Assembly (NCBI GenBank): GCA_005883575.1
Contig: VBFH01000035.1
Coordinates: forward strand, 1-64,000
Reading direction: 5' to 3'
DNA from: Chloroflexota bacterium
Lineage (GTDB): Bacteria; Chloroflexota; Dormibacteria; Dormibacterales; Dormibacteraceae
DNA: 64,000 nt
The position numbers were made by a program, and so were the translations under genes. This document shows, in pieces, positions 26,297-60,303 of the stretch (within the stretch, counting starts at the first letter, position 1; every line of letters begins with the position of its first letter). The notes below the pieces were generated by a model. The model was not told the origin of the DNA. It saw only the letters and a list, made by a program, of their open reading frames with translations, and searched no databases.

Positions 26297-26501
26297 GTCG
26301 CGTCATCCGATGCGTGGCATCGCACTCGACGACACGATCAAACGACGGCGGTGGCCTGCAACGCATTTCGGCTGCGCTCGTTAGCTCAGCCCTCGCGTGT
26401 GTCCTCGATCTATGGCTGGCGCGTAAGCAACCACGCGATAGCGTGCGATGTGATGCGTGGCGCGGGCGACAGTCGTGCGGACTCCGCTGAATTGGAGGCA
26501 G

Positions 26502-28587
<2,086 letters not shown>

Positions 28588-28613
<26 letters not shown>

Positions 28614-30213: not shown

Positions 30214-30218
30214 CGCGC

Positions 30219-32681: not shown

Positions 32682-32786
32682 CGGAAAGCTTCCCACAAGC
32701 GTGCCGGCCGAGCATTCTCGTGACCAGACAAATTGACTACTGAATCGACCCCACGGCCCGGCCGCGACGAACCGGTGTAGGCGGCC

Positions 32787-41755: not shown

Positions 41756-41786
41756 GTCTCAAGAAACCGCCAGACTAAAATCAGGA

Positions 41787-45214: not shown

Positions 45215-46320
45215 CCACCGGCCTTGTCTGGCACGAGTTGTACATGTGGCATGACACCGGCACCGGTGCATGGGTGATGCCGGCGAGCCTTACCGTCCAA
45301 CCGCTCGGGCACATCGAAAGCGCGGAAGGCAAGCGCAGGATTCACAACCTCCTCCAGGTCAGCGGGCTCATGGATCATCTCGTGCAGCTGAAGCCGCGCC
45401 CGGCCACCGAGGACGAGATCCTTCGCCTGCACACCCAGGAATACGTCGAACGGATCAAGAAGATGAGCTCCGAATTGGGTGGGGAGGCGGGGGAGGAGAC
45501 GCCATTCGGGCGCGGCTCTTACGAGATCGCGCTGCTGGCCGCGGGCGGCTGCATCACGGCGGTAGATGCCGTACTCGACAAAAAGGTGGACAACGCTTAC
45601 GCGCTCGTGCGTCCCCCTGGACATCACGCCGAGAGGGATCAGGGCCGCGGCTTCTGCATTTTCGGCAACGTCACCCTCGCCGCCATGCACGCGCAGGTCC
45701 GGGGGCTGTCTCGCCTAGCGATCGTGGACTGGGATGTCCACCACGGCAACGGCACCGAGCACGCGTTCTACTCCGACCCGACCGTCCTCACCATCTCTAT
45801 CCATCAGGACAACAACTATCCGCCGGGCTCGGGCGCCATCACCGATACCGGCCAGGGCGCGGGCCGTGGCTACAACATCAACGTCCCGCTGCCGCCGGGA
45901 TCCGGGGTCGGCGCTTACGTCGCCACCTTCGAGCGGGTGGTGGTGCCGGCGCTGAAGGCGTTTCGCCCGGAGCTGATCCTGATCGCGTCCGGCCTGGACG
46001 CAAGCGCGATGGACCCGCTCGCTTCGATGATGATGACCAGCGACGGCTACCGGACGCTCACCGGCATGGTGCTCGCCGCAGCGCGCGACGTTTGCGGCGG
46101 CATGCTGGTCGCCTGCCACGAGGGCGGCTACTCGCCCGCGTACGTCCCCTACTGTGGGCTGGCTGTCATCGAGGAGCTGGCTGGAATGCGGACGAGCATC
46201 GAAGATCCTCTCCTCGGTCTGCTGGCCGCGTTCGGGGGCCAGGAGATCCAGCCCCACCAGGAGGTCGTGGTGCAGCAAGCGGCGAAGCTGGCGGCGGGTG
46301 TCTTGCCCGCCGCGCACTGA
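45211..46320 (+). CDS. Class II histone-deacetylase-like amidohydrolase
   Basis: 369 residues from GTG overlapping livM by TGTGA. Zn-dependent deacetylase motifs are complete: RPPGHHAERDQGRGFCIFGNV (tandem His), VDWDVHHGNGTEHAFYSDP (Asp and His ligands), SGLDASAMDPLASM (third ligand Asp) and CHEGGYSPAYVPYC (Tyr). Bacterial members deacetylate polyamines, acetoin-like compounds or other small N-acetyl amines. Being translationally coupled to a full ABC importer, it probably deacylates the imported compound. Confidence 0.88.
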   Translation: MTTGLVWHELYMWHDTGTGAWVMPASLTVQPLGHIESAEGKRRIHNLLQVSGLMDHLVQLKPRPATEDEILRLHTQEYVERIKKMSSELGGEAGEETPFGRGSYEIALLAAGGCITAVDAVLDKKVDNAYALVRPPGHHAERDQGRGFCIFGNVTLAAMHAQVRGLSRLAIVDWDVHHGNGTEHAFYSDPTVLTISIHQDNNYPPGSGAITDTGQGAGRGYNINVPLPPGSGVGAYVATFERVVVPALKAFRPELILIASGLDASAMDPLASMMMTSDGYRTLTGMVLAAARDVCGGMLVACHEGGYSPAYVPYCGLAVIEELAGMRTSIEDPLLGLLAAFGGQEIQPHQEVVVQQAAKLAAGVLPAAH

Positions 46321-46345: not shown

Positions 46346-47008
46346 GTGGACAGGTTTGCGGCAGACTACTTGGACCACATCGCGGATCGCCTCTACTCGT
46401 CGGTGCTGGCCGACATTCTTGACGACGCAGGCTACCGGCATCAGGTGATGCGGCACGACGTGCGCCCGCTATATCCAGGCGCGAAAGCGGTTGGGCGAGC
46501 GGCCACGATGCTCGCCCTCGAGGTCACCGAGCTGCCAGCGGAGCCCTACAAGCTGCTGATGGATTTGCTGGACGGCATCCGCCCAGGCGAGGTGGTCGTG
46601 GGCGCTGTGCAGGGGAACCCGGGCGGCGCGCTCTGGGGCGAGCTGCTGAGCACGCACACCCGCGCCCGCGGCGGCAGGGGCACCGTGCTCGATGGCTTGA
46701 CCCGTGACATCTGGGGAATCGTTGACATGAAGTTCCCGGTGTTTGCGCGCGGGCTCTCTCCGGCCGACTCCAAGGGCCGCCTGGAGGTCGTCGCCATCCG
46801 GGCCACGATTCCCGTGGCCGGGGTCTCAGTGGCAGACGGCGACCTGGTCTTCGCCGATGGCGACGGCTGCGTGGTAGTGCCTGCAAAGGTCGAGGAAGAC
46901 GTCGTCGTCCGCGCGCTCGAAAAAGTGTCGGGAGAGAACAAGATGCGCGAGATCCTGGCCCGAGGGGCGAGCATCCGCGAGGTCTTCAAGGAGTACGGCA
47001 TTCTTTGA
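46346..47008 (+). CDS. RraA-type family protein (HMG/CHA aldolase-like)
   Basis: 220 residues from GTG 4 bases after AAGGAGG; an ATG at 46331 lies before that ribosome site and is less likely. LADILDDAGYRHQVMRHDVRPLYPGAKAVGRAATM, GNPGGALWGELLSTHTRARGGRGTVLDGLTRDIWGI (Arg-Asp active-site pair) and VFADGDGCVVVPAKVEEDVV match the RraA/demethylmenaquinone-methyltransferase-like family, whose enzymatic members are divalent-metal pyruvate aldolases or oxaloacetate decarboxylases. It probably cleaves a keto acid from the operon's pathway. Confidence 0.83.
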   Translation: MDRFAADYLDHIADRLYSSVLADILDDAGYRHQVMRHDVRPLYPGAKAVGRAATMLALEVTELPAEPYKLLMDLLDGIRPGEVVVGAVQGNPGGALWGELLSTHTRARGGRGTVLDGLTRDIWGIVDMKFPVFARGLSPADSKGRLEVVAIRATIPVAGVSVADGDLVFADGDGCVVVPAKVEEDVVVRALEKVSGENKMREILARGASIREVFKEYGIL

Positions 47009-47169: not shown

Positions 47170-47982
47170 ATGGCGATGCGGTTCGACGGCCGGGTGGTGA
47201 TCGTCACCGGCGCGGGCTCCGGGATCGGGCGCGTGATCGTGCAAAGGTTCGCCGGCGAGGGCGCGAAAGTTGCGGTAGTGGACTGGGTGGCCGATCGTGC
47301 CGACGGGGTCACGGCCGAAATCGCTTCGGCAGGTGGCAGCGCGCTGTCAGTGCACGCCGATGTCAGCTCGAGGCGCGACGTGGACGCCATGGTCGGGAGG
47401 GTGGTGTCGGAGCTCGGGCCGGTGGACGTGCTCGTCAACAACGCGGCCATCGCCGAAGGCGACGACGTGCTCCGGATGGACGAGGTCACGTGGGACCGCG
47501 ACGTGGCGGTGGTGCTGAGGAGCGTCTTCCTCTGCTGCAGGGCGGTGCTGCCTTCGATGATCGATCGCCGCACCGGGGCGATCGTGAACATCTCATCGGT
47601 CAACGGGATCACGGCCCTCGGCAACGAGGCATACAGCGCGGCCAAGGCCGGCATGCTCAATCTGACGCAGGGAATCGCCGTCCGGTACGGAGCGCACGGG
47701 ATCAGGTGCAACGCGATCGCTCCAGGTACCATCCGGACGCCGATCTGGCAGGCGCGAATCGATCGGGATCCCGTGGTGTTCCAACGGCTGGTGAAGTGGT
47801 ACCCGCTCGGCCGCGTGGGCGAGCCGGACGACATTGCGAACGCCGCGATGTTTCTGGCGTCGGACGAGGCGTCCTGGATCACAGGCGCCGTGCTTCCAGT
47901 GGACGGCGGCTTGCTCGCCGGCAACTACCGAATGACGCGGGAGCTGCTGGCCGAGGCCGGCAACGAAACGCTGGACTCCTAG
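47170..47982 (+). CDS. SDR family oxidoreductase
   Basis: 270 residues, ATG immediately after the stop of the RidA remnant. TGAGSGIGRVIVQRF, VNNAAIAE (NNAA instead of NNAG), NISSVNG, YSAAK and a C-terminal PVDGGLLAGNYRMTRELLAEAGNETLDS extension. The catalytic triad is intact. Three bases separate it from the D-aminoacylase-like gene. Confidence 0.86.
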   Translation: MAMRFDGRVVIVTGAGSGIGRVIVQRFAGEGAKVAVVDWVADRADGVTAEIASAGGSALSVHADVSSRRDVDAMVGRVVSELGPVDVLVNNAAIAEGDDVLRMDEVTWDRDVAVVLRSVFLCCRAVLPSMIDRRTGAIVNISSVNGITALGNEAYSAAKAGMLNLTQGIAVRYGAHGIRCNAIAPGTIRTPIWQARIDRDPVVFQRLVKWYPLGRVGEPDDIANAAMFLASDEASWITGAVLPVDGGLLAGNYRMTRELLAEAGNETLDS

Positions 47983-47985
47983 CAT

Positions 47986-49527
47986 TTGGAGTTCGACGTC
48001 CTCATCACCGGCGGCGACGTCGTGGACGGGAGCGGCGGGCCGCGGCAGCGCCTGGACGTCGGAATCTCGGGCCACCGCATAGCCGCGGTCGACCGTCTGG
48101 AAGGCTCGCGCGCCGGGCGCATGATCTACGCGCGCGGCCTGGCGGTCGCACCGGGCTTCGTTGACGTCCACGTCCACTCCGAGTTGGCCCGCCTCGGGGG
48201 CGTCGACCAGTTCGCCGGCGTGCTCGACGGCGTCACGACCGAGCTGATGTCACCGGACGGGTTCAGCTGGGCTCCGCTTTCACAAGATCGGCTGGGCGAG
48301 GTCAAGGATTATCTGCAGGTCTTTTACGGTGACCCCGACATCGGGTGGGATTGGACCTCGGTGGCCGGCTACCTGTCGATGTTCAGGGGACGAATCCCGA
48401 ATCACCTCGTGCCGCAAGCTCCCCACCTCGCCATCAAGGTCGCGGCCATGGGATGGAAGCCCGGCCCTCCATCTGACGAGGAGGCGAGAGCCATGCAGGC
48501 GCACCTGGTCGAGTGGCTCGAGGCCGGCGCGGTGGGCATGGCCGCGGGCCTTGAGTATCAGCCGGGCGCCCTGTCAGAGCTTGGCGAGCTGGTCGACCTG
48601 TGCCGCCTGGTGGCGGACGCAGGCGGGGTGTACGCGCCTCACCAGCGCGGTTACTGGAGCCGACTGGCCTCGGGCTGCCGCGAGAGCTTCGAGATCGGGC
48701 GCAGGTCCGGAGTCAAAGTCCACATCTCGCACCTGGCGATGGACGACGCCGCGGCCGGCCTGGTCGAAGAGGCACAAGCCTCAGATGTCAACGTGAGCTT
48801 TGACATGTACCCGTACTCGGCCGCATGCACGCACCTGCTCATGATGCTGCCGGAGTGGGCGCAGGCGGGCGGCTACCAGGCCAGCATCGAACGTCTCGCC
48901 AGTCAGTCTGAACGGAGGGCGCTGCGCGACGAGACGGCGGCGCGGATCGCCGAGAGGGGCGACATCACGCTGAGCAGTGTGGAGGCAGGGGAGGAGCTGG
49001 AAGGGCGAAGTCTCGGCCGGCTCGCAGATGAAGCCGGTAAGGAGGACGTGGACTTCCTCTTCGATCTGCTCGCAGGCCACGCCGGCCGTGCCCTGGCCAT
49101 CTATCACTGGCCGGACTCCCTGGATGGCGAGGCGATCCTCAAGCGAACCATCGCACACCCGCTCTACGTGGGCTCCACTGACGGCATCTACGTGGGCAGC
49201 CGGCCGCACAGGCGGGGCTTTGGTACCTTCGCCAGGATCGTGGGAGAGCAAGTGCGCGGCGGCACGCTGACGCTCGAACAAGCAGTCCGCAAGGTCACCG
49301 GAGCTCCTGCCGAGCGCTTCGCCCTCGAGGACCGCGGCATCATCAAGGAGGGCATGGCCGCCGACATCACGGTATTCGATCCCGAGGCGCTCGCGGACAG
49401 GAGCACGTGGGAGAACCCTCGCGTGCCCCCGTCAGGGATCGCGCACGTGCTGGTCGAGGGCGAAGCGGTCGTGTCCGACGGCCGAGCGACCGGCGCGTTG
49501 CCCGGCCGGATCGTCGGCCGCTCCTAG
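47986..49527 (+). CDS. D-aminoacylase/N-acyl-D-amino-acid deacylase-like amidohydrolase
   Basis: 513 residues from TTG. N-terminal composite beta domain FDVLITGGDVVDGSGGPRQRLDVGISGHRIAAV, metal motif GFVDVHVHSE, later His in VKVHISHL (His 250-type ligand), GSTDGIYVGSRPHRRGFGTFARIVGEQVR (catalytic Asp) and GIIKEGMAADITVFDPEAL. In characterised D-aminoacylases GNCG supplies a Cys metal ligand after GVTT; here it is SPDG, placing Asp there. It likely releases an acyl group from an N-acyl amino-acid-like compound; specificity uncertain. Confidence 0.83.
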   Translation: MEFDVLITGGDVVDGSGGPRQRLDVGISGHRIAAVDRLEGSRAGRMIYARGLAVAPGFVDVHVHSELARLGGVDQFAGVLDGVTTELMSPDGFSWAPLSQDRLGEVKDYLQVFYGDPDIGWDWTSVAGYLSMFRGRIPNHLVPQAPHLAIKVAAMGWKPGPPSDEEARAMQAHLVEWLEAGAVGMAAGLEYQPGALSELGELVDLCRLVADAGGVYAPHQRGYWSRLASGCRESFEIGRRSGVKVHISHLAMDDAAAGLVEEAQASDVNVSFDMYPYSAACTHLLMMLPEWAQAGGYQASIERLASQSERRALRDETAARIAERGDITLSSVEAGEELEGRSLGRLADEAGKEDVDFLFDLLAGHAGRALAIYHWPDSLDGEAILKRTIAHPLYVGSTDGIYVGSRPHRRGFGTFARIVGEQVRGGTLTLEQAVRKVTGAPAERFALEDRGIIKEGMAADITVFDPEALADRSTWENPRVPPSGIAHVLVEGEAVVSDGRATGALPGRIVGRS

Positions 49528-50705
49528 GCGGTGGTCTCGACCGCGGCGCGGATCAGGTCGAGTGACTCCAGGCGCATGAGCCCGTAGTGGTAGAAGCCAA
49601 CACCGGCGACGTCCAGCTCGCGCGCGACCGCGAGCTTCGCGGCCAGGTTCTCGGCCCCGTCGCAGTCGGGCGCCATCGGCCGCATGATTACCGAGAGCCG
49701 TGGCTCCGAACCGATAGCGGCGCGATATGCGGCGAGGTCGAGTCGGAGTCGCTTGGGATCGGCCGCGTAGCCGATCGCCTCGAGCTGGCCGCAAGCCGCG
49801 GCCACGCCGCCGACATCAATCCCGAACTGCCACGCGGTGTCCGCGGCTGGTCCACCCCGCGGGCGCCCGGTGGCGTAACCCTTGACCGCACCGGACAGGT
49901 CGATGAAGGCGAAGCCCGCCTTCTCGGCAGCGGCGGTCCCCGCAGCCTCCGTCACCAGCGAGAGAACGGTGTCGGCTCGCGTCTCGAGATACCCCGCCAG
50001 CTCGCCGCCGGCGAACTCACCCACCTTCTCGCGGACCAGCTCAGGCGGCTCCGGTTTGGGATCGGCCGCGAAGCGGCGATCCAGTTCCAGCCGCGCTTCG
50101 AGCCGCAGTTTTTCCGCGTCGACCCCGCGCCGCCTTGCCGCGGCCAGGCAGCTGTCGCAGAAGCACAGGCCGAGCAAGAAACGGCCGAAGCCGCCGAGCT
50201 CGATGAAGTACCGCTCGTGATGGAAGCCGTGCTCGAGGCCATGGAAGTGGAGGGACTCCGCAACCACCGCCGCCACGCCCTTGCCCGAGATGTCAGCGCT
50301 GAGGGCTATGACGTAGGCCCGCACGTCGGGATTGGACGGGCAGAGATCGGTGAGGTGCGCGTCACCGAATGCGTTGTGGCACGCGCATTCTGGATGGGCG
50401 GTGCCGAGCGAGTAGTTGTGCAGAAAGACAGTCCAGGCGCGCACCCGCAAGGAGCGTGCGGCCGCCTCGCGACAGAGCTCGGCGAGGATATCCGACTCCC
50501 GGGCGAGGGCGCTGACCCTGGGCTGCAGTTTCAGGCCGCGATACCGTGCTGTATCCGGCCTGAAGAAGACGCTGTCACCATCCAGGAAGTGCACCTTTCG
50601 CGAAGGGTTGTGTGGAAAGATGTCGCGGCCCTGGTGGTAGGCGGCCGCCATCGTGATGCCGCCCAGCCCGGCACGGCCCGACGCGTTGTCCAGCACCCTA
50701 GCCAC
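49524..50705 (-). CDS. Cys-rich protein of unknown family, possible TIM-barrel glycosidase (N-terminus extends upstream of first canonical start)
   Basis: Coding resemblance continues upstream of this GTG: codons from 50762 read ILTIDTSLFAFASDLADEG, plausibly the true N-terminus. No ATG/GTG/TTG is in frame until far inside the divergent gene; an ATC is at 50760-50762. With it the protein is 412 residues. Features: AAAYHQGRDIFPHNPSRKVHFLDGDSVFFRP, VRAWTVFLHNYSLG, Cys pairs in ECACHNAFGD, LCPSN and CFCDSCLAAARRRG, and GFYHYGLMRLESLDLIRAAV at the end. The W-x-x-x-x-H-N / CFCDSC layout recalls uncharacterised glycoside-hydrolase-like barrels. I cannot assign a function. Its end overlaps the D-aminoacylase-like gene by 4 bases. 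Confidence 0.7.
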   Translation of the reverse strand: MARVLDNASGRAGLGGITMAAAYHQGRDIFPHNPSRKVHFLDGDSVFFRPDTARYRGLKLQPRVSALARESDILAELCREAAARSLRVRAWTVFLHNYSLGTAHPECACHNAFGDAHLTDLCPSNPDVRAYVIALSADISGKGVAAVVAESLHFHGLEHGFHHERYFIELGGFGRFLLGLCFCDSCLAAARRRGVDAEKLRLEARLELDRRFAADPKPEPPELVREKVGEFAGGELAGYLETRADTVLSLVTEAAGTAAAEKAGFAFIDLSGAVKGYATGRPRGGPAADTAWQFGIDVGGVAAACGQLEAIGYAADPKRLRLDLAAYRAAIGSEPRLSVIMRPMAPDCDGAENLAAKLAVARELDVAGVGFYHYGLMRLESLDLIRAAVETTA

Positions 50706-50822
50706 ACCCTCGTCCGCAAGGTCGCTGGCGAACGCGAATAAGGACGTATCGATGGTCAGGATGTTAGCGGCGCCACATGAGCCCGACGCGGCGCGTGGCG
50801 CTGATCTAACTTTGACCCGACG

Positions 50823-51461
50823 ATGGTGAACGCCGTCGACAGGGCTTTCCCGCTCCGCCCCGAGACTTCGGCGCTGATCGTGGTGGACATGCAGAACGAC
50901 TTCGTTCGAGTCGGGGCTCCGCTCGAGGTGCCTGACGCCCGGGAAACGATCGAGGTTCACCTCGCGCTGCTCGATTGGTTCCGAAAACGGTCACGGCCGG
51001 TGGTTTTCACACGATTTGTGGCCGGACCTTACCCGACCTTGATGTGGAAGTGGTCTCCAGTCATCGCGCCTCCGGTGTGCTGCTGCTGGCCAGGCTTCAT
51101 GCGCGCATACGGCGACATCGAGGGTGAGCGCGACTGCGCGGGGGTGATCGATGAGCTCGCGCCGCTGCATGGGGAGGCTCAGATCGACAAGTACGGCTAC
51201 AACGGGTTCCATCGCACCAGGCTGACCGACCTGCTCGTTGCCCACGGTGTCGACACCGTGCTGATCACCGGCACGGTCACGCAGATCTGCGTCGAAGACA
51301 CAGCGCGAGGCGCCTTCCACGAGGGCTTCCAGGCCGCGGTCGTCGCTGACGCTGTCTCCTCGTACGCGCCGGAGCTTCACCGCGCGAGCCTGCAGACCCT
51401 GGCCATGAAGTACGGCCGCGTCGTGACTGCGGACGAGGCCATGCGCGAGCTGGAACGGTGA
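50823..51461 (+). CDS. Isochorismatase-family cysteine hydrolase
   Basis: 212 residues. Catalytic triad of the family: Asp in ALIVVDMQNDFVRVG (about residue 22), Lys in IDKYGYNGFHRT and Cys in GTVTQICVEDTARGAFHEGF, with the cis-peptide GTVTQ. Members hydrolyse amides such as N-carbamoyl compounds, nicotinamide or ureido acids. The odd stretch APPVCCCWPGFMRAYG adds three adjacent cysteines. The stop TGA shares its A with the next ATG (TGATG), so expression is coupled to the D-serine-dehydratase-like gene. Confidence 0.88.
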   Translation: MVNAVDRAFPLRPETSALIVVDMQNDFVRVGAPLEVPDARETIEVHLALLDWFRKRSRPVVFTRFVAGPYPTLMWKWSPVIAPPVCCCWPGFMRAYGDIEGERDCAGVIDELAPLHGEAQIDKYGYNGFHRTRLTDLLVAHGVDTVLITGTVTQICVEDTARGAFHEGFQAAVVADAVSSYAPELHRASLQTLAMKYGRVVTADEAMRELER

Positions 51462-52762
51462 TGGCGCGCTCACAGGCGCGGTCTCTCAATCTCGATTCGT
51501 TGCTGGAGGAGCCTGTCGACTGGCGCTACAAATCGTTTCCTGGGGGGCAGGCCGTGCCGCTCCGCTCCGTGGGAACCCGCGGCTGGAACGTCCTCGACGG
51601 TGAATTCATGTTGCCCGTCATGGTGATCAAGGACTCGGCTCTGCGGCACAACATCGAGCTCATGTCGAGCTACTGCCGCGACCATGACGTCCTCCTCGCT
51701 CCTCATGGAAAGACGGCCATGTCCCCCCAGCTGCTCAAGCTTCAATTGGAGGCCGGTGCGTGGGCGGTGACGGCCGCGACCATGAGCCAGGTTAGGATCT
51801 GGCGCGCCTTCGACGTCGACCGCGTGATCCTGGCCAACGAGCTGGTCGAGCCCGCCTCGGTGCGATGGGTTGCGAACGAGCTGCGCGACGACCCGGAGTT
51901 CGACTTCTACTGCCTCGTCGATTCAGTCGCCGAGGTGCGCCTGCTCGAGACTGCGCTCGGCGACACTGCTCTGGATCGCCCTCTGCAGGTCCTGCTCGAG
52001 GTCGGGCCGGTCGGCGGGCGGACCGGGTGCCGAACTCCGGAGCAGGCACTCGAGGTAGCGCGCGCCGTGGATTCCTCTCCCCGGCTCATCCTTGCTGGCG
52101 TGGAGGCCTTCGAGGGCGTCATCGGCTCCAAGACTCTAGGCGGCACGATCGACGCGATCGATGCCTTGCTGGGCGACATGCGTGCGCTGGTCCTCAAGCT
52201 GGATGGAGCGGGTCACTTCGCCAAGACGCCCCAGGTGATCGTGACCGCAGGGGGCAGCGCGTTCCCTGACCGTGTCGTGGCCGCGCTGGGACGCCCGTGG
52301 GATCTGAGCCGGCCCGTGGCGCTTGTCCTCCGCAGCGGCTGCTACCTGACGCATGACGCCATCCATTACCAACACCTGTCGCCGTTTGGCGGCCGCATTC
52401 CCGAAACGGCACCGCTTGAGGAAGCTCTTGAAGCGTGGGGGGTCGTTCTGTCTTTGCCCGAGCCGGGACTGGCGCTGATCGGCTTCGGCAAGCGCGACGT
52501 CCCCCATGACCTCGAGCTCCCGGTGCCGCGCTTCGTCAAGTCCGGCGCTGAGAAGGCACGACGGCTCGGTGACGGCGCATCGATCTTCGCCGTCAACGAC
52601 CAACACGCATATATGAAGGTTGACCCGGCTGAGGAGCTTGGGGTGGGGGACGTGGTCGGATGCGGCATCTCGCATCCGTGCACAGCGTTCGACAAGTGGC
52701 GGCTGATCCCCGTGGTCGACGACGGCTACCGCGTGATCGACGCCATCCTGACCTACTTCTAA
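51461..52762 (+). CDS. D-serine dehydratase-like fold-III PLP enzyme (third copy)
   Basis: 433 residues. PLP lysine in LAPHGKTAMSPQLLKLQ (about residue 87), GVEAFEGVIG, VTAGGSAFPD, LRSGCYLTHD, and a C-terminal domain ending GCGISHPCTAFDKWRLIPVVDD. Unlike the copies at 7204 and 17374, this one keeps the His-x-Cys pair (SHPC) that binds zinc in D-serine dehydratases, so a zinc- and PLP-dependent elimination or aldol cleavage is plausible. It is upstream of KDG kinase and KDPG aldolase genes, 3 bases from the former. Confidence 0.85.
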   Translation: MARSQARSLNLDSLLEEPVDWRYKSFPGGQAVPLRSVGTRGWNVLDGEFMLPVMVIKDSALRHNIELMSSYCRDHDVLLAPHGKTAMSPQLLKLQLEAGAWAVTAATMSQVRIWRAFDVDRVILANELVEPASVRWVANELRDDPEFDFYCLVDSVAEVRLLETALGDTALDRPLQVLLEVGPVGGRTGCRTPEQALEVARAVDSSPRLILAGVEAFEGVIGSKTLGGTIDAIDALLGDMRALVLKLDGAGHFAKTPQVIVTAGGSAFPDRVVAALGRPWDLSRPVALVLRSGCYLTHDAIHYQHLSPFGGRIPETAPLEEALEAWGVVLSLPEPGLALIGFGKRDVPHDLELPVPRFVKSGAEKARRLGDGASIFAVNDQHAYMKVDPAEELGVGDVVGCGISHPCTAFDKWRLIPVVDDGYRVIDAILTYF

Positions 52763-52765
52763 GTC

Positions 52766-53698
52766 TTGCCAAAACGGCAGCTGGTCACGCTGGGCGAGGC
52801 CATGCTCCGTCTGTCGGTGAAACCCGGCGACCGGGTCGAGGACGCACCGGCTTTCGACGTTCACGTGGCCGGCTCCGAGGCCAACGTCGCTTATGCTGCC
52901 GCCCGGGTCGGGGTTCGCACCGCCTGGACGTCGGTCCTTCCTGACAATCCACTGGGTCACAGGGTCGCCACCACGCTTTCGGCCGGAGGCGTCGACACGT
53001 CGCTCGTGCGCTGGGAGCCCGGCGGCAGGCTAGGTCTTTACTTTGTGGAGCTGGGAGCCGCACCGCGGCCGATCAGCGTCACCTACGACCGCGCCGCTTC
53101 CACCATGGCGCTCGCCTCCACATCCGATTTCGATTGGCCGGCCGTGGTCGACACGCGGGTGTTCCATGTGTCAGGGATCACCCTGGGGCTGTCGGCCTCG
53201 TGTCGCGAGCTGGCGAAGCACGCGATGCGGGAGGCCCGTCGCGCCGGCGCCACCGTAACGTTCGACGTCAACTACCGGCAGAAGCTATGGGACCCGAAGC
53301 TCGCGGCCGCCGTGGTCCGCGAAGTTGCACCGCTTATCGACGTCCTCATCTGCACACAAGAGGACGCGCGAGACCTGTTCGAGGTGAATGGAGCCCCGGC
53401 CCTCGGCGTGGAAACCGTCGTCCTCACGCGTGGTGCCGAGGGCGCGGTTGCTTCCCGCGACGGAGTTTCGATCGAGCGCCGCGGCCACCCGGTGGAGACC
53501 GTCGACCGCGTCGGCGCAGGCGATGCGTTCGTGGCCGGCCTGGTGTGGGGCCTGTTGGACGGATCGCTCGAGCGCGGCCTCGAACGAGGCCTGGCGATGA
53601 GCGCGCTGAAGATGACTCTGCGCGGCGACCTCTTCCGGCTCGACGCCGCCGATGTCATCGCGCTTCTCGCGCGCGAAGGCCGAGAGGTCGGGCGTTGA
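52766..53698 (+). CDS. kdgK: PfkB-family sugar kinase, 2-keto-3-deoxygluconate kinase-like
   Basis: 310 residues from TTG. PfkB/ribokinase features: GEAMLRLSVKPGDRVEDAPAFDVHVAGSEANVAYAAARVG at the substrate lid, VTFDVNYRQKLWDPKLAA, and the anion-hole/catalytic motif DRVGAGDAFVAGLVWG (Asp base about residue 252). FDVNYRQKLW is frequent in KDG kinases. It overlaps the KDPG aldolase gene by TTGA, which supports the assignment: KDG to KDPG, then cleavage. Confidence 0.87.
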   Translation: MPKRQLVTLGEAMLRLSVKPGDRVEDAPAFDVHVAGSEANVAYAAARVGVRTAWTSVLPDNPLGHRVATTLSAGGVDTSLVRWEPGGRLGLYFVELGAAPRPISVTYDRAASTMALASTSDFDWPAVVDTRVFHVSGITLGLSASCRELAKHAMREARRAGATVTFDVNYRQKLWDPKLAAAVVREVAPLIDVLICTQEDARDLFEVNGAPALGVETVVLTRGAEGAVASRDGVSIERRGHPVETVDRVGAGDAFVAGLVWGLLDGSLERGLERGLAMSALKMTLRGDLFRLDAADVIALLAREGREVGR

Positions 53699-54333
53699 GC
53701 CCGGTCGAGCGGCTGCTGAAGTCGAGGCTGATCGGGATTGTCCGGCTTGACGACCTCGAGCTCGCGGTGGCCTCCGCGACATGCGCGATCGAAGCCGGTC
53801 TCGAGGTGATCGAGGTGACGTTCACGCTGCCGAGCGCCGCCCGCGCCATCGGGAGGCTTCGCCGCGAACATCCATCGGCGCTGGTCGGTGCCGGGACCGT
53901 CCGCACCCTCACCGAGCTGGAGGACGCGGCGGCTGCCGGCGCCCAGTTCTTGGTCGCGCCGGGGCTCAATCCCGAGCTGGTGGAAGCCGCCCGGCGGCGC
54001 GGGCTGTTGATCCTCCCGGGTGTGTTCACCGCCTCCGAAGTTGACACCGCCCTCCGCCACGGCGCCGAGTTGCTGAAGCTCTTTCCGGTCGAGCCGCTTG
54101 GACCTTCGTACATGGCGTCTCTGCTGCAGCCGTTCCCGCGAGCCCGGATCGTCCCGACGGGCGGCATCAATGCCGCCAACGCGGCCGCCTACCTGCAGGC
54201 CGGCGCCGCCGCGGTCGCGATGGGCTCGTCGCTGTTTCCGGCCGCGCGCATCATGTCTGAGGGGCCGGGTGTGGTGGTGCCGCTGGTCGCTGGCGCCCTG
54301 GCGGCAGTCGGAACCAAAGGAGACAAACGATGA
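53695..54333 (+). CDS. eda: 2-keto-3-deoxy-6-phosphogluconate (KDPG/KHG) aldolase
   Basis: 212 residues from TTG overlapping the kinase stop. Class I aldolase: catalytic Glu in VIEVTFTLPSA (about residue 41), Schiff-base Lys in ELLKLFPVEPLGPSYMASLLQPFP, ALVGAGTV and VPTGGINAANAAAYLQAGAAAVAMGSSLF. It splits KDPG into pyruvate and glyceraldehyde-3-phosphate. With the kinase it forms the lower branch of an Entner-Doudoroff-type sugar-acid pathway; no dehydratase of the usual type is seen, and the upstream PLP enzyme might supply the keto-deoxy acid (inference). Confidence 0.9.
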   Translation: MSPVERLLKSRLIGIVRLDDLELAVASATCAIEAGLEVIEVTFTLPSAARAIGRLRREHPSALVGAGTVRTLTELEDAAAAGAQFLVAPGLNPELVEAARRRGLLILPGVFTASEVDTALRHGAELLKLFPVEPLGPSYMASLLQPFPRARIVPTGGINAANAAAYLQAGAAAVAMGSSLFPAARIMSEGPGVVVPLVAGALAAVGTKGDKR

Positions 54334-55460
54334 TCATCGACGCCCACAACCACGTGCTTGCGGCCGGCCTATACCCCGGCTACGAGCGGTTCATCAAAGA
54401 GATGACCATGGGCTACTTCCAGTCGCACGGCTCGCTGCCCGAAGACCGTGACCCCCGGGACGAGGACTGGAAGGGTCTGGAGTACCTGTGGGAACCGATC
54501 GACCCGGAGACTCTTATCCGCGATCACGCTGGTGTGGGAGTCGACAAATGCACGATCCTGGCGGTGGCCCCCTCCGAGTACACGCGGTACGAGGCCCGCG
54601 GCACGGTCGACATCGCAGGTGTGACCGGGGTCGAGGGTCCCCCAAGCATCGACAAGGGCAACGACTACATCGCCGCGCTCGTGAGGAAGTATCCCGACAC
54701 GTTCATCGGCATGTCTGCGGTCAACCCCAAGTTCCGCGGAGTCAAGGCGGCGGTCGCTGAGTTGGAGCGGGCAATCACCAACCTCCGGCTGACCGGCCTG
54801 AAGCTTTACCCGATGTACGACCACTGGGCGCCCAACGACCGCGACCTGGCTTTTCCGATTTTCGCGAAGGCGGCGGAGCTCGACATCCCGGTGATGGTCC
54901 ATCTCTCAACCACCCCTGTCGGCGACACGGTGCTCATTTACGGCTGGCCGGTCCTGCTCGACGACGTCGCGCGCGCGTTTCCAAGCCTGCGTCTGCTCAT
55001 CTGCCACGCCGGCCACCCATGGATCGACGAATGCCTGGTGCTGATCTCGCGCCACCGCAACGTCTACCTGGACATGAGCTTCCTGAACAGCACGCTCGAC
55101 CAGCGAGAGACCTATGGCTTTCTGAGGCGGGCGCGGCAGCTCGGCTGCCCGCTGAGCCGCGTCTGCTGGGCCACCGATTACCCGGGCTTCGAGTTTCCGG
55201 AGACGCTGCTTCCGAAGCTCGCCCTGGTCAATCGCTCAGCGGGCGACGATCCGGTCATCCCGACCAATGACGTCGCACGGATGCTGGGCGGAAACTACGC
55301 CCGCTTCTTGAATATCGACTGGAGCCTGGACGAGACGCTCGAGCAGATCCGGACGCTCGAGCCGAGATGGTCGAGCATCCTCAGCGGAGAGAAGCTGGAC
55401 GGGTCAGAAAGGCCCAACGCTGACCGACCGATGAATCCGCCGCGGCACCACAGCTGCTGA
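54330..55460 (+). CDS. Amidohydrolase-2 family protein
   Basis: 376 residues, ATG overlapping eda by ATGA. TIM-barrel metal hydrolase/decarboxylase: N-terminal DAHNHVL in place of the usual HxH, GLKLYPMYDHWAPNDRDLAFPIFAKAAELDIPVMVHLSTTPVGD, LLICHAGHPWIDECLVLISRHRNVYLDMSF and CWATDYPGFEFPE (metal Asp). Homologues include decarboxylases such as ACMSD and lactone hydrolases. In the sugar-acid operon, lactonase activity is an attractive guess. Confidence 0.84.
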   Translation: MIIDAHNHVLAAGLYPGYERFIKEMTMGYFQSHGSLPEDRDPRDEDWKGLEYLWEPIDPETLIRDHAGVGVDKCTILAVAPSEYTRYEARGTVDIAGVTGVEGPPSIDKGNDYIAALVRKYPDTFIGMSAVNPKFRGVKAAVAELERAITNLRLTGLKLYPMYDHWAPNDRDLAFPIFAKAAELDIPVMVHLSTTPVGDTVLIYGWPVLLDDVARAFPSLRLLICHAGHPWIDECLVLISRHRNVYLDMSFLNSTLDQRETYGFLRRARQLGCPLSRVCWATDYPGFEFPETLLPKLALVNRSAGDDPVIPTNDVARMLGGNYARFLNIDWSLDETLEQIRTLEPRWSSILSGEKLDGSERPNADRPMNPPRHHSC

Positions 55461-55521
55461 ACCGGCTCGCGCGCGCGTCTTCTAAATTCATGTACTTGCG
55501 GTTCCGTCAAAATTGAGCCCG

Positions 55522-57006
55522 ATGGCCGAGCCCGATCAGAACGCCTGGGTCTCGGCCGCGGAATTGGCGCGGCTCATCCGGACGCGCGAGCTTTCACCGG
55601 TCGAGCTGATGGCCGCGACCATCCAGCGAATCGAGCGACGCAACCCCAGCCTCAAAGCTCTGGTCTATCTCGACTTCGACCAGGCCATGCAGAGAGCGCG
55701 CGCCGCGGAGGGGGCTGTGATGTCGGGCGCAAGCCTTGGCCCGCTGCACGGCGTGCCTACCGCGATGAAAGACCTCTTCGACTTCAAGCCAGGATGGCCG
55801 GCGACCTTTGGAGGCATCCGTGCCCTTCGAAACCAGGTGATTGACGCTTACTGTCCGTACGCGGAGCGGATGGAACGCGCGGGGGCGATCCTGGTCGGCA
55901 AGACCAACGCGCCGATCATGGGCCTGCGTGGGATCGCCGACAACTACCTTTTCGGACCAACCCACAATCCGTTTGATTTAAGCCGGAATCCAGGCGGTTC
56001 TTCGGGCGGAAGCGCGGCCGCAGTGGCCGATGGGCTCGTGGCAATCGCGGAAGGGACCGATGGCGGCGGCTCGATCCGGATCCCGGCCGCATGGTGCAAC
56101 GTGTTCGGCTACCGCGCCTCATACGGCCGAGTGCCGTACACGTTCCGCCCGAACGCGTTCGGGAGCCTGAACCCGTTTTTGTTCGAAGGCACGCTCACGC
56201 GAACGGTCGAGGACGCGGCGATCGGCCTGCAAATCCTGGCCGGGCCCGACGCCCGCGACCCGTTCTCGCTGACGAGCACGCCGGACTTCAGCGCCGCGTT
56301 ATCGCATACGTTGAGTGGGTCCAGGGTCGCCTACAGCCCCGACTTCGACGTGTATCCAATCGAGCCGGCGGTCGCCGTCGTGGTGGCCGACGCCGTGCGC
56401 GGATTTGTCGACGCCGGGGCCACCGTCGAGACGGTCAAGGTCGGCATCAAGCGCTCGCAGCGTGAGCTCAGCGACCTCTGGAACCGCATGATCATGCCGC
56501 TGAACATCTCGGGACTCGAGGGTCTCAAAGCCGCCGGTGTCGATCTCATGCGCGACCATCCCGAGGACCTGCCGCCGGAGTACCGGCACTGGATCGAGAT
56601 CGGTTACGGCATGTCGGCCATGGACGTGTGGAACGACATGGTGTTGCGCACCGAGGTGTACGACGCAATCGAGTCGGTGCTGCAGAGCTACGACCTGCTC
56701 GTCACGCCCACCCTGGCGTGCCTGCCGGTCAAGAACGCCACCGACGGCAACACGCTGGGGCCGACCCAGATCAACGGGGAGGCGGTCGATCCCCTCATCG
56801 GCTGGTGCCTTACGTATCTGACGAACTTCTCCGGCCATCCGTCCGCGTCGATTCCTGCCGGACTGTCGGGTGGGCTGCCGGTTGGGATGCAGATCATCGG
56901 CCGCCGCGAGGCTGACGTCGATGTGCTCGGTGCCAGCGCGGCCTTCGAGCGTGTCCGTCCCTGGGCGGATGCCTACCGGATCTGCGAGGAGCGGCCCCTG
57001 TCGTAG
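55522..57006 (+). CDS. Amidase (amidase-signature family)
   Basis: 494 residues from ATG (a TTG three codons earlier is possible). Ser-cisSer-Lys triad: Lys83 in GVPTAMKDLFDF, cis-Ser in GGSSGGSAAAVADG and nucleophile Ser in EGTDGGGSIRIPAAWCNVFGYRAS. C-terminal SIPAGLSGGLPVGMQIIGRREADVDVL is standard. It hydrolyses an amide or aryl-amide; substrate unknown. A 61-base gap separates it from the previous gene, and its last 34 bases overlap the convergent GMC gene. Confidence 0.9.
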   Translation: MAEPDQNAWVSAAELARLIRTRELSPVELMAATIQRIERRNPSLKALVYLDFDQAMQRARAAEGAVMSGASLGPLHGVPTAMKDLFDFKPGWPATFGGIRALRNQVIDAYCPYAERMERAGAILVGKTNAPIMGLRGIADNYLFGPTHNPFDLSRNPGGSSGGSAAAVADGLVAIAEGTDGGGSIRIPAAWCNVFGYRASYGRVPYTFRPNAFGSLNPFLFEGTLTRTVEDAAIGLQILAGPDARDPFSLTSTPDFSAALSHTLSGSRVAYSPDFDVYPIEPAVAVVVADAVRGFVDAGATVETVKVGIKRSQRELSDLWNRMIMPLNISGLEGLKAAGVDLMRDHPEDLPPEYRHWIEIGYGMSAMDVWNDMVLRTEVYDAIESVLQSYDLLVTPTLACLPVKNATDGNTLGPTQINGEAVDPLIGWCLTYLTNFSGHPSASIPAGLSGGLPVGMQIIGRREADVDVLGASAAFERVRPWADAYRICEERPLS

Positions 57007-58592
57007 TCGCGCCGGCTCTCCCAGATCTGGTCCGCACATCTGAGCGCAAGCGCTTGAATCGTGGCACTCGGGTTCACCCCGGCGCTCGTCGGCATGCTGC
57101 TGCCGTCGGCGATGAAGAGGTTGGGCACGTCGTGGGCGCGGTTGAAGCGGTCAGCGACCGACGTGCGCGGATCATCTCCCATCCTCGCGGTCCCGAGGAG
57201 GTGCCATCCCCAGATCGGTGCGAGCCCGAAGTCGCGAACGCTCCTGGCCCCGGCTGCCTCGAGCACCTGGTGGGCATGGCCGATCATGTCCCGGCCTAGC
57301 CGGCGGCTGTTGTCGTTCAGCTCATGGTGGGTGACCACGCCAGGCATGCCGAAGCCGTCCAGGTGGTCCCAATCGAGCTCCACGCGGTTCGACTCCTCCG
57401 GCAGGTCCTCACCGCAGAGGTAGAGGGAGATCTCGTGGTTGATCCGCTCGTCGAACGCCCGGTGGTGCCCTGAACCCCACGGCGCGATCTGCAGCGCCAG
57501 GTTGAGCGGAGACCAACCCCGGCATCCGCTCATGATGAACCCGCGCAGGTAGTCCCGAGCGGGATCGGTTTCATAGAACTGGCGGGTCGATACCGTCCCG
57601 CCCCAGGTCCCGTTCCAGCCGTCGACAGGCTCTTCGAAAAGACCGGTCGCGAAGCTCTGGACGTGCACCATCAGGTTCTTGCCGACCAGTCCGCTCGAGT
57701 TGGCAAGTCCGTCCGGATGGGAGGGCGAGGTGGACATGAGCAGCAGCCGCGGCGTGCCCAATCCGCCGCATGCGACGACGGTTACGGCGGCGCGCGCCTC
57801 CCGGACCACGCCATCCTGGTCGTAGTAGCGCGCGCCGAGGGCGCGGCCGTCCTCGCCGATCACGATCTCGCCGACGCGGGCCTGGGTCCGTAGGTCGACT
57901 CCGTTTTTGAGCGCGCCGGGCCAGTACGTCAGGTCGGCGGTGGACAGAGACCCTTGGGGACATCCAAACGTGCACCAGCCGCGGTTGTCGCACGCCGGGC
58001 GCCCACGGTAAGGCCGGGTTGTGATCGCCTGCTCGGTCGGCCACCAGTACCAACCGAGCTTCTCGTAGGCGTTCACGAGCAGCTGGCCGGGCCGCCCGAT
58101 CGGAGCGGGCGGATTGGGGAGAGGTTCGCGGGGTGGGCCGCACGGATCGCCGGCGAGGCCGGCGACTCCGACCTCGGCCTCGTTGATTGCGTAGTAGGGC
58201 GCCAGCTCCTCATAGTCGAACGGCCAGTCGGCGCCGACGCCATCGAGCGAGCGCACCTTGAAGTCTGAAGGCGCCATCCGCCAGTAGTTTCCGGCGAAGC
58301 CGATCTGGCTCCCGCCGACGGCGTTGTACATGTAGACATCGATCGGATCCTGCCCCTCGCTGCTCACTGGGTAGTCGGCAGGCCATCGCCGCACGTTCGG
58401 GTTGGCGGCCCAATAGCGCCGGCCGCGCACCTCCCAATCGGGATGCGACTTCGGCAGCCGGGCGCGATCGACCCACTCACCCTGCTCCAGGCACCTCACC
58501 CTGGCGCCTCGACCAGCCAGCCGGCTGCAGATTGCGGCCCCCGCCGCCCCCGACCCGATGACGAGGACGTCTGCGTCCGGTTCGCGGCTCAT
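56973..58592 (-). CDS. GMC-family FAD oxidoreductase (gluconate 2-dehydrogenase large-subunit-like)
   Basis: 539 residues; start at the ATG overlapping the subunit gene (ATGA), since the frame is open but unrelated upstream. FAD motif VLVIGSGAAGAAICSRLAGRGARVRCLEQGEW, VGGSQIGFAGNYWRMAPSDF, CTFGCPQGSLSTADLTYWP, and the C-terminal catalytic region GWHLLGTARMGDDPRTSVADRFNRAHDVPNLFIADGSSMPTSAGVNPSATIQALALR with the expected His and Asn. It oxidises a sugar or sugar acid and probably passes electrons through the small subunit to a cytochrome that is not in the window. Confidence 0.9.
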   Translation of the reverse strand: MSREPDADVLVIGSGAAGAAICSRLAGRGARVRCLEQGEWVDRARLPKSHPDWEVRGRRYWAANPNVRRWPADYPVSSEGQDPIDVYMYNAVGGSQIGFAGNYWRMAPSDFKVRSLDGVGADWPFDYEELAPYYAINEAEVGVAGLAGDPCGPPREPLPNPPAPIGRPGQLLVNAYEKLGWYWWPTEQAITTRPYRGRPACDNRGWCTFGCPQGSLSTADLTYWPGALKNGVDLRTQARVGEIVIGEDGRALGARYYDQDGVVREARAAVTVVACGGLGTPRLLLMSTSPSHPDGLANSSGLVGKNLMVHVQSFATGLFEEPVDGWNGTWGGTVSTRQFYETDPARDYLRGFIMSGCRGWSPLNLALQIAPWGSGHHRAFDERINHEISLYLCGEDLPEESNRVELDWDHLDGFGMPGVVTHHELNDNSRRLGRDMIGHAHQVLEAAGARSVRDFGLAPIWGWHLLGTARMGDDPRTSVADRFNRAHDVPNLFIADGSSMPTSAGVNPSATIQALALRCADQIWESRRDYDRGRSSQIR

Positions 58593-59185
58593 CGCTTGAC
58601 CTCTGGGCCGCCTTCGAAAATGCGGTAGCGGGGAGGCAGCTCGCGCACGCGCTCCAGCTGCGAGGTGTCGAACGGGGCGATCGGGCTGCCCGTCATCGTT
58701 GCATTGCCTCGCCACCCGCTCTTCGCCTCGATGGCGGCGAGCACCTTCGGGTGGCCGTAGTACGCCTCGTACGTGAAGTCGCTGACCATGCTGAACGCGT
58801 CGCGGTCGCCCCCAGACAGGAACTGCCGCAGTATCGCTTCCCGCTCCTCCGCGCTGCATTCCGAGAACCCTCTCCTGGTCGTGGTCCTGGCTAGGCGCTC
58901 CACCTCGTCGATGGCGTGGATGAGCACCGGTCGGATCGAGGGAACCAGATGCACGGTGGCGTCGATGTATTCCGCCGCGCCGACACTCCCGGCATCAGGC
59001 CGCCTCCCAGCGGCGGGGATCAGCGTCGACGTCCACGCCTTCAGGGTGGCGGCTCGCGCGGGGTCGAGGACCACAAAGTCTCGCGGTGACCCCAGCGGCA
59101 CCTCCGCACGCCCGACCTCGAGGCGATAGTCGGGCCGGCTCGACTGCGCCACCTGGTGTTGGCCCTGTTTTCGGTCATATGCCAT
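58589..59185 (-). CDS. Gluconate 2-dehydrogenase subunit 3 family protein
   Basis: 198 residues. AYIDATVHLVPSIRPVLIHAIDEVERLARTTTRRGFSECSAEEREAILRQFLSGGDRDAFSMVSDFTYEAYYGHPKVLAAIEAKSGWRG fits the small (gamma) subunit of FAD-dependent membrane gluconate dehydrogenases. No Tat or Sec signal is obvious at its N-terminus MAYDRKQGQHQVAQSS; in known complexes this subunit carries the Tat signal, so the location here is uncertain. It overlaps the GMC start by 4 bases, supporting a complex. Confidence 0.82.
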   Translation of the reverse strand: MAYDRKQGQHQVAQSSRPDYRLEVGRAEVPLGSPRDFVVLDPARAATLKAWTSTLIPAAGRRPDAGSVGAAEYIDATVHLVPSIRPVLIHAIDEVERLARTTTRRGFSECSAEEREAILRQFLSGGDRDAFSMVSDFTYEAYYGHPKVLAAIEAKSGWRGNATMTGSPIAPFDTSQLERVRELPPRYRIFEGGPEVKR

Positions 59186-59217: not shown

Positions 59218-60303
59218 CTACGAGTCCTCGCCGCGCGGCCTCCCCGTGCTCTCTCTAACCATCAGCTCCACAGCGTGCAGCCTCGTGGTAGTGCTGGTGT
59301 CGTCGCCCTCCAGGTAGCGCATCAGACGCTGCACGCCCGCAGCACCGAGCTCGGCCATGGGGACGTGGACTGTAGTCAGCCTCGGATGGATGAACTCCAG
59401 TCCGGGAATGTCGTCAAATCCGGCCACGGAGACATCTTCTGGGACGCCAAGGCCTTGCCGTCGCAACTCGGCAAGAGCGCCCAGCGCCATCGTGTCGCTC
59501 GCTACGAACACAGCGCTTGGTGAGCGGTCCGCCAGCAGACGGGCCATCGCGGCAGCTCCTCCGGCGGTGGTGAAATCGGCCCGCACCACAACCGCGTCGG
59601 CGCCGGCACCCTCCATGACCTCGAGATATCCGAGCTCTCGTTCCCGGCTGGTCCGAAGGGTCGCCGGGCCGCTGATCATGGCGATCCGAACATGACCGAG
59701 CGCCAGCAGGTGCTGGGTTACGAGGCGAGCGCCGGCGCGGTTGTCAGGCATCTCGGCAGGCCATCGCTCGGACCGCGGGGCGAGGGCGACGATAGCGCCC
59801 CCGTAATGCGCGATGCTACGCGCGTAGTCACCCATGCGGCGGCGGTAGTGAGCCTCGTCAAGGCCTCCGCCTGCGAAGATCACGCCGGACACCCGGCTCA
59901 GGCTCAACATCTCGACATAGCGCAGCTCGGTCAGAGGGTCACGGTCGCTGCTGCAGACCACAGTCAGAAAGCCGCGCGAGGATGCGGCCGCGGTCGCGCC
60001 CCGGACGATCTCGGCGAAGTATGGGTCGGTCACGTCGTGGACAACGATGGCGATGGTTGGGACACGCCTCGTCCTCAGGGCCCGCGCCATCGGGTTCGGC
60101 CTGTAAGCAAGGCGCGTGGCTGCGGCCAGGACGCGGGCGCGTGTGCGATCGCTGACCGGGTGGCTATTGTCGGGATCCAGCGCGCGCGAGGCTGTCGTGA
60201 GCGAAACCGCAGCCTGCTGAGCGACGTCCGAGAGGATGGGCAGCTTGCGGCGGGTCGCTGCCGATCGCCGCTCCCTCCGCGCAGGAGAGGCGGTGCGGCT
60301 CAA
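59218..60303 (-). CDS. LacI-family transcriptional regulator
   Basis: 361 residues from TTG overlapping the SDR stop. A basic N-terminal tail SRTASPARRERRSAATRRK precedes the LacI HTH LPILSDVAQQAAVSLTTASRALDPD (about 21-45) and hinge ARVLAAATRLAYRPNPMARALRT. The periplasmic-binding-type core follows: IVVHDVTDPYFAEIVRGATAAASSRGF, GHVRIAMISGP, AVFVASDTMALGALAELRRQG and VSVAGFDDIP. It sits inside the SDR/GMC operon, so it likely controls it in response to a sugar. Confidence 0.9.
   Translation of the reverse strand: MSRTASPARRERRSAATRRKLPILSDVAQQAAVSLTTASRALDPDNSHPVSDRTRARVLAAATRLAYRPNPMARALRTRRVPTIAIVVHDVTDPYFAEIVRGATAAASSRGFLTVVCSSDRDPLTELRYVEMLSLSRVSGVIFAGGGLDEAHYRRRMGDYARSIAHYGGAIVALAPRSERWPAEMPDNRAGARLVTQHLLALGHVRIAMISGPATLRTSRERELGYLEVMEGAGADAVVVRADFTTAGGAAAMARLLADRSPSAVFVASDTMALGALAELRRQGLGVPEDVSVAGFDDIPGLEFIHPRLTTVHVPMAELGAAGVQRLMRYLEGDDTSTTTRLHAVELMVRESTGRPRGEDS

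Follow-up and report, generated by a model that had tools for sequence, protein, structure and literature searches.

A Chloroflexota gene cluster that probably degrades an N-acylated amino aldonic acid through a PLP-dependent deaminase

Organization of the locus

The stretch of DNA analysed here (the window) comprises 64,000 nucleotides from a Dormibacteraceae genome of the Chloroflexota (GCA_005883575.1, contig VBFH01000035.1, positions 1 to 64,000; 3.6 Mb in 127 contigs, 95.5% complete, referred to as G000). At 50823-55460 five genes lie end to end, encoding an isochorismatase-like hydrolase, a fold-type III pyridoxal phosphate (PLP) enzyme, a PfkB kinase, a 2-keto-3-deoxy-6-phosphogluconate (KDPG) aldolase and an Amidohydro_2 protein. 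The TGA of the isochorismatase-like open reading frame (ORF) overlaps the ATG of the PLP ORF (51461) by one base, three bases separate the end of the PLP ORF (52762) from the TTG start of the kinase (52766), and the kinase/aldolase and aldolase/Amidohydro_2 ORFs overlap by four bases each. This spacing and the Pfam domains (Table 1; scan of 48 window ORFs) bear out the tight coupling of these genes claimed in a first-pass annotation, which drew the gene set too small. The operon is larger: a liv-type ATP-binding cassette (ABC) importer, a histone-deacetylase (HDAC)-family protein, an RraA-like protein, a short-chain dehydrogenase/reductase (SDR) and a D-aminoacylase-like hydrolase (47986-49527) precede the five-gene block. 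This hydrolase, the genes upstream of it and orf478, which lies antisense between the D-aminoacylase-like and isochorismatase-like genes, travel together in relatives. We propose with moderate confidence that the genes at about 47986-55460, along with the upstream importer, degrade an N-acylated 2-amino-2-deoxy-aldonic acid, either N-acetylglucosaminic acid (GlcNAc1A) or a close relative. A promoter/terminator scan of 50700-50830 gave no match.

The aldolase alone among the PLP enzyme, kinase and aldolase exceeds a curated NCBIfam cut-off (TIGR01182 eda, 191.3 bits vs 156). The kinase scores best with the model for 2-keto-3-deoxygluconate (KDG)/KDGal kinase (282.7 bits, below the cut-off of 440), and the best score of the PLP protein is 71.9 bits against a cut-off of 690, although its fold-type III domain pair, Ala_racemase_N (PF01168) and D-ser_dehydrat (PF14031), is above cut-off. 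A second, more distant gene of the KDPG/KHG (2-keto-4-hydroxyglutarate) aldolase family lies elsewhere in the genome, on contig C103.

Table 1. Features of the operon and its flanks
Feature	Coordinates	Strand	Domain evidence
liv-type ABC importer: binding protein (40442-41755), 2 ATPases, 2 permeases; ORFs overlapping	40442..45214	+	PF13458, PF00005 x2, PF02653 x2
Histone-deacetylase-family protein, possible N-deacetylase (putative role)	45106..46320	+	PF00850 E 2e-91
RraA-like protein, start approximate	46427..47008	+	PF03737 E 8e-28
SDR oxidoreductase	47170..47982	+	PF13561 E 2e-65
D-aminoacylase-like amidohydrolase, proposed N-deacylase	47986..49527	+	PF07969 E 3e-23
orf478, predicted glycoside-hydrolase-type barrel; start approximate, longer ORF to 50960	49524..50759	-	GHL6 E 0.015, below cut-off
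Isochorismatase-family hydrolase	50823..51461	+	PF00857 E 6e-40
Fold-type III PLP enzyme, proposed amino-aldonate deaminase	51461..52762	+	PF14031 E 7e-15, PF01168 E 3e-8
PfkB kinase, KDG-kinase-like	52766..53698 (TTG start)	+	PF00294 E 5e-45
KDPG/KHG aldolase	53695..54333 (TTG start)	+	PF01081 E 3e-45, TIGR01182 eda
Amidohydro_2 protein	54330..55460 (ATG start)	+	PF04909 E 4e-31
Amidase	55513..57006	+	PF01425 E 2e-85
GMC oxidoreductase, pathway role uncertain	56973..58859	-	PF05199 E 3e-20, PF00732
Gluconate 2-dehydrogenase subunit 3-like protein	58589..59185	-	PF13618 E 7e-13
LacI-type regulator, possible operon regulator	59218..60303	-	PF00356, PF13377

Linkage of the PLP and kinase genes within and beyond the family

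Orthologs of the PLP enzyme, 61-85% identical, occur in nine other genomes of the family (ten with the window's), and 12 of 110 class genomes match it at E <= 1e-60. The isochorismatase-like gene and a KDG-type kinase stand beside the PLP gene in eight of the ten family genomes, and an aldolase gene stands beside the kinase in five (G000, G024, G010, G018 and G031). orf478 is present in eight (partial in G033), the D-aminoacylase-like gene and the amidase in seven each, Amidohydro_2 in three (the window's, G017 and G018) and a RidA gene in the operon of three (G017, G108 and G010). Wherever contigs or fetched stretches extend upstream, they contain RraA, SDR, HDAC-family and liv genes, with RraA and SDR kept in G017, G024, G010, G018 and G108, and the HDAC-family gene and homologs of importer parts in G024, G010 and G018. 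Further downstream, the GMC oxidoreductase and the gluconate 2-dehydrogenase subunit 3-like gene are kept in G024, and the LacI-type regulator in G024 and G108.

More widely, we compared the best 80 of at least 594 confirmed PLP relatives (the named loci), a selection that for this reason leans towards the window's relatives. Profile counts in these loci were 36 for RidA, 34 for D-aminoacylase-like proteins, 20 for KDG kinase, seven for aldolase and one for DgoK, and short contigs make absences weak in several loci. As a control, matches within 4 kb of the PLP gene (586 kb) were compared with those further away (757 kb) in 79 loci (L047 dropped), using reference proteins taken entirely from PLP or orf478 loci, a choice that can favour nearby matches. 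Near and far counts were 19 and 0 for KDG kinase, 30 and 2 for D-aminoacylase-like proteins, 34 and 1 for RidA, and 15 and 0 for the gluconate-type permease (GntP), so that these four links are specific; IclR (26 and 5), aldolase (6 and 1), orf478 (4 and 0) and SDR (27 and 11) also gave higher counts near the PLP gene. RraA (2 and 3), amidase (2 and 2) and isochorismatase (0 and 1) are not enriched near the PLP gene in the named loci, and DgoK gave 0 and 1. Retention of the isochorismatase-like, PLP and kinase genes in eight of ten family genomes, together with the near and far counts for KDG kinase, indicates a linkage beyond chance.

We also mapped kinase linkage onto a tree of 102 PLP proteins, obtained by a quick search with Shimodaira-Hasegawa-like approximate likelihood-ratio support only and no bootstraps; the tree omits L047 (it shares its contig with L025), G101 (its sequence is split over frames) and L034, and the L052 row holds one internal stop. 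Linkage, scored in 35 of the 102 rows, can be explained by 13 changes (no fewer than 10 when judged by starred branches), while shuffled states need 29.3 and none of 500 shuffles came as low as 13. Judged from this tree, kinase linkage is clustered, yet appears to have been repeatedly gained or lost; the tree cannot tell which.

Known chemistry and the proposed pathway

The reaction that we propose for the PLP enzyme has a precedent in Pseudoalteromonas. According to Jiang et al. 2022 (PMC9537276), OngB deacetylates GlcNAc1A, the fold-III PLP enzyme OngC converts the resulting glucosaminic acid (GlcN1A) to KDG and ammonia with no water used, and KdgK then phosphorylates KDG; a KDG-6-P aldolase is an extra member of the ong clusters of Vibrio, Klebsiella and Serratia. 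D-Ser and D-Thr are further substrates of OngC (PMC9537276). A 2010 paper had already pointed to genes for a glucosaminate deaminase and a KDG kinase in Cupriavidus (PMC2842291), a haloarchaeal glucosaminate route via a phosphate-dependent lyase has been predicted (PMC12343721), and close OngB/OngC homologs are reported missing from Aeromonas (PMC11653859). Because OngC performs the reaction on GlcN1A and the neighbourhood evidence agrees, the proposed chemistry is likely and not new. The first-pass annotation had suggested an unusual entry to the lower Entner-Doudoroff branch; the route is plausible, but its novelty we rejected on the OngC precedent. The literature searched, which lacks most subscription papers, yielded PMC9537276 and PMC12017989 on the ong pathway and no description of the pathway in Chloroflexota.

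By analogy, the window enzymes probably work like OngC, KdgK and Eda. The first step, release of the amino group, would fall to an N-deacylase, for which the D-aminoacylase-like protein is the likeliest candidate. The PLP enzyme would then carry out a deamination of the GlcN1A type, demonstrated for its homolog OngC: the amino acid end would be bound as an aldimine, Lys84 would abstract the proton at C2, loss of the C3 hydroxyl would be assisted by the metal site at His405/Cys407, and the resulting enamine would pass to an imine and be hydrolysed, giving ammonia and KDG with zero net use of water. The PfkB kinase, by its family assignment, would form KDPG, and the aldolase, assigned above cut-off, would yield pyruvate and glyceraldehyde-3-phosphate. 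Among the other genes, Amidohydro_2 may be a lactonase, and the GMC oxidoreductase and gluconate 2-dehydrogenase subunit 3-like protein may together form a sugar oxidase. An alignment of 21 proteins that includes OngC shows Lys84, His405 and Cys407 in every one of them; their catalytic roles we assume from related enzymes.

Although the window resembles the ong cluster (reference genome CP091443, deposited with PMC9537276) in its fold-III PLP enzyme with the same Lys and His/Cys, its D-aminoacylase-family gene and its PfkB sugar kinase, as well as in the aldolase of some clusters, identities are low: 37% for the PLP enzyme (to OngC of CF6-2), 27% for the D-aminoacylase-like protein and 27% over 164 residues for the kinase. 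The kinase and aldolase are matched in the window by PF00294 and TIGR01182, the specificity of the kinase being predicted from its sequence. In place of other ong-type genes the window holds the liv importer and the HDAC-family, RraA, SDR, isochorismatase, amidase and orf478 genes. The Pfam scan of the 48 window ORFs found neither GH20 (OngA) nor an SSS transporter, the rest of the genome not having been searched for them, and no RpiR was found in the window. We rejected the window operon as an ong cluster on the clade of its PLP enzyme, its residues at OngB positions, the lack of RidA in the window and the lack of lytic polysaccharide monooxygenase (LPMO) genes in the genome. By its sequences, the Chloroflexota gene set is built differently from the marine one, with orf478 as an uncharacterised glycosidase-like partner.

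Closer in composition are the actinomycete loci of the type RidA-IclR-KDGK-PLP-D-aminoacylase-(Eda)-GntP, represented by plasmid 9 of Tsukamurella tyrosinosolvens, where the order is KDG kinase, PLP enzyme, D-aminoacylase, KDPG aldolase and gluconate symporter. Four enzyme families are shared with the window (identities of 40% for the PLP enzyme, 34% each for the D-aminoacylase-like protein and the kinase, and 38% for the aldolase), and the PLP enzymes fall in the window's half of the tree, whereas the gluconate-type symporter and IclR regulator set these loci apart. To our knowledge no assay exists for such loci. A further comparison is the glucosaminate 6-phosphate system, whose PLP enzyme belongs to a different PLP fold type. 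Like the proposed pathway, it deaminates glucosaminate to a 2-keto-3-deoxy acid in a PLP-dependent step followed by an aldolase; the difference is that it acts on the 6-phosphate, following uptake by the phosphotransferase system (PMC9529869).

Evidence against the proposed pathway and alternative explanations

Several observations weigh against amino-aldonate degradation. In the PLP tree the window enzyme lies in a ten-row Chloroflexota clade (support 98), on the side of the tree where most actinomycete rows are found, and OngC rows stand on the opposite side of a branch of support 98, which places the window enzyme outside the OngC clade as judged by sequence. Its identities to homologs of P. 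piscicida and Klebsiella are 35-36%, and to those of Comamonas and Pantoea 42-43%. The best match in the PDB, and by sequence the closest solved structure, carries the name D-serine deaminase (3gwq, E 3e-79); 7dib (E 4e-16) and 6qkb (E 9e-14) follow. RidA (OngD) was not found in the window, although its presence in three family genomes speaks for the pathway, and LPMO (PF03067) gave no match in the 95.5% complete genome; an LPMO-chitin source for the window pathway is unsupported. In G017, G108 and G033 the kinase has no aldolase gene next to it. A PF01081 match lies elsewhere in the genomes of G017 and G033; the search of the G108 genome gave none, and its kinase is split over frames. G033 and G031 have contigs that break off early. 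Two class members with 47-49% identical PLP relatives, G029 and G022, hold the PLP gene without the module; in one the gene is close to the end of its contig, and in the other the contig measures 4.7 kb. The arrangement in G022 (L030:9283-11508) nevertheless speaks for the proposed pathway: a DapA-family (PF00701) aldolase gene directly adjoins the end of the PLP gene with no gap, and its NCBIfam models include archaeal KDG aldolase, all below cut-off. Lastly, 33 of the 80 named loci have none of D-aminoacylase, kinase, aldolase, RidA and DgoK.

The D-aminoacylase-like protein bears on the same question. Its best PDB match is the D-aminoacylase 1m7j (E 2e-60), followed by PpOngB 9kb1 (E 3e-38). 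OngB residues (Wang et al. 2025, PMC12017989) were placed on the protein through an alignment in which a shift of one residue brings seven of them into register: His68, His70, His222, His252, Tyr285, Asp368 and Arg379 are kept, while Cys97 is replaced by Asp, Lys254 by Ala and Ser290-292 by Ala-Cys-Thr, and these replacements count against the protein as a GlcNAc1A deacetylase. The Thr at the Ser292 place is as in D-aminoacylases, and Asp at the Cys97 place is also found in the Tsukamurella and Arthrobacter proteins; Gln298 falls within a stretch with a large insertion where the alignment is unreliable. The first-pass suggestion of a 2-keto-3-deoxy acid made from an amino sugar acid is partly supported, by the chemistry shown for OngC and by its fit to the neighbourhood, and is weakened by the position of the PLP enzyme on the tree and by these replaced residues.

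The same observations could indicate that the PLP enzyme is a general deaminase of D-serine, D-threonine and other beta-hydroxy-D-amino acids in an operon for N-acyl-D-amino acids, with the amidases and the liv-type importer, and that the kinase and aldolase serve another sugar acid. The 3gwq match, the higher score of the hydrolase against 1m7j than against PpOngB, its Thr at the Ser292 place and the 33 loci without partner genes all speak for this. However, the products, pyruvate and 2-oxobutyrate, require no KDG kinase, and the kinase is linked to the PLP gene in eight of ten family genomes and exclusively near it elsewhere; we regard this explanation as unlikely. The D-serine deaminase 3gwq and the D-threonine/3-hydroxy-D-aspartate aldolases (7dib, 6qkb) share the fold-type III PLP family with the window enzyme, and we know of no tie of these enzymes to KDG kinase and KDPG aldolase.

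Alternatively, the PLP enzyme may make a 2-keto-3-deoxy acid from a different 2-amino sugar acid (galactosaminate, or one of aminouronic or deoxy type), with part of the flux through the SDR and RraA proteins instead of kinase and Eda. Consistent with this, two Rhizobium loci (L150, L153) combine SDR, RraA, orf478, RidA and PLP homologs, while the annotation of these stretches lists neither a KDG kinase nor a KDPG aldolase; DgoK and DgoA annotations adjoin the PLP and D-aminoacylase genes in Comamonas and Klebsiella, which equally favours the main proposal; and three of the eight kinase-bearing family loci lack the aldolase beside the kinase. Since RraA is not enriched near the PLP gene in the named loci, and the window and Rhizobium RraA proteins are only 26% identical over 146 residues, we give this explanation little credence.

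The first-pass annotation also stated that no ordinary sugar-acid dehydratase is present. This holds for the window's contig (C54), where PF00920 and PF13378, the only families searched (uronate-type dehydratase families were not), gave no match. Elsewhere the genome contains a single PF00920 fragment, located at the end of a contig and scoring best as dihydroxy-acid dehydratase, and six PF13378 (enolase superfamily) matches above cut-off with substrates unassigned. That one of these six supplies KDG, the PLP gene being in the operon for some other reason, is very improbable, because none of them lies on the window's contig, and the PLP and kinase genes stay side by side in relatives and again in other phyla.

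If amino-aldonate degradation is correct, a deaminating entry of amino sugar acids to the lower Entner-Doudoroff branch extends beyond chitin use by Gammaproteobacteria and would be shared by soil Chloroflexota and Actinomycetota with an importer, deacylase and glycosidase-like partner of their own. Some 'alanine racemase' and 'amino acid deaminase' annotations in such loci may then belong to sugar-acid enzymes. The gene linkage makes the specificity of the PLP enzyme and the function of orf478 directly testable.

orf478, a putative glycosidase linked to the PLP gene

No Pfam family matches orf478 above cut-off (nearest GHL6, E 0.015), and its profile found no PDB sequence up to E 1. An AlphaFold2 model built from nine sequences (six Chloroflexota, two Actinomadura and one Undibacterium) predicts a confident barrel (pLDDT 86.6, pTM 0.89); a first model from six close sequences reached a pLDDT of 47 and was set aside. 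Foldseek places the C-terminal domain of PgaB first among PDB matches of the model (E 8.6e-9). In VIA-align, limited to the families in its list, the model scores Z 26.9 with Cwp19 (298 residues aligned, root-mean-square deviation 3.1), 25.4 with PgaB (316, 3.2) and 24.5 with GH42 (307, 3.0), a spread too small for a substrate to be named. All 14 homologs compared keep Glu168, which may be catalytic; L068 was left out of the second structure alignment.

At E <= 1e-8 orf478 occurs in nine of 110 class genomes, eight of which also hold the PLP gene, and it is present in five of the 80 named loci (L047, L056, L068, L100 and L115). Both Actinomadura loci have the order PLP, aldolase, KDG kinase, RidA, orf478. 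Among seven plasmid loci fetched for orf478, three carry a PLP gene (L150, L155 and, by annotation, L153), a D-aminoacylase-like gene occurs in L155 and L156, and none of the partner genes is found in L152 and L154. The Rhizobium plasmids L150 and L153 each have one locus with SDR, amino-acid ABC, RraA, orf478 homolog, AstE/AspA-family, RidA, PLP, Amidohydro_2 and sugar ABC genes. On an Alicyclobacillus dauci plasmid (L151) the orf478 homolog lies beside KDGP aldolase, FGGY kinase, phosphotriesterase-like and creatininase-family genes.

Going by the model, orf478 may cleave a larger glycoside and so liberate the amino aldonate. A bolder reading, which we put forward tentatively and consider doubtful, is that orf478 founds an uncharacterised glycosidase-type family that makes up, with a PLP deaminase of the window type, a module for amino-aldonate catabolism that does not depend on chitin LPMOs. 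Such a module would occur in Chloroflexota, Actinomycetota, Pseudomonadota and perhaps Bacillota, use enzymes other than those of the marine ong pathway and feed on a non-chitin glycoside.

Other features of the window

Two further PF14031 enzymes are encoded in the window, at 7204-8256 and about 17395-18531, surrounded by FGGY kinase, SDR, aldolase-type and thiamine pyrophosphate (TPP) genes, and a fourth lies on contig C57. On the reverse strand, 24440-32696 holds a row of three alpha-amylase-family genes, two of them with CBM48, and 37960-38877, upstream of the importer block, an acetamidase/formamidase-family gene.

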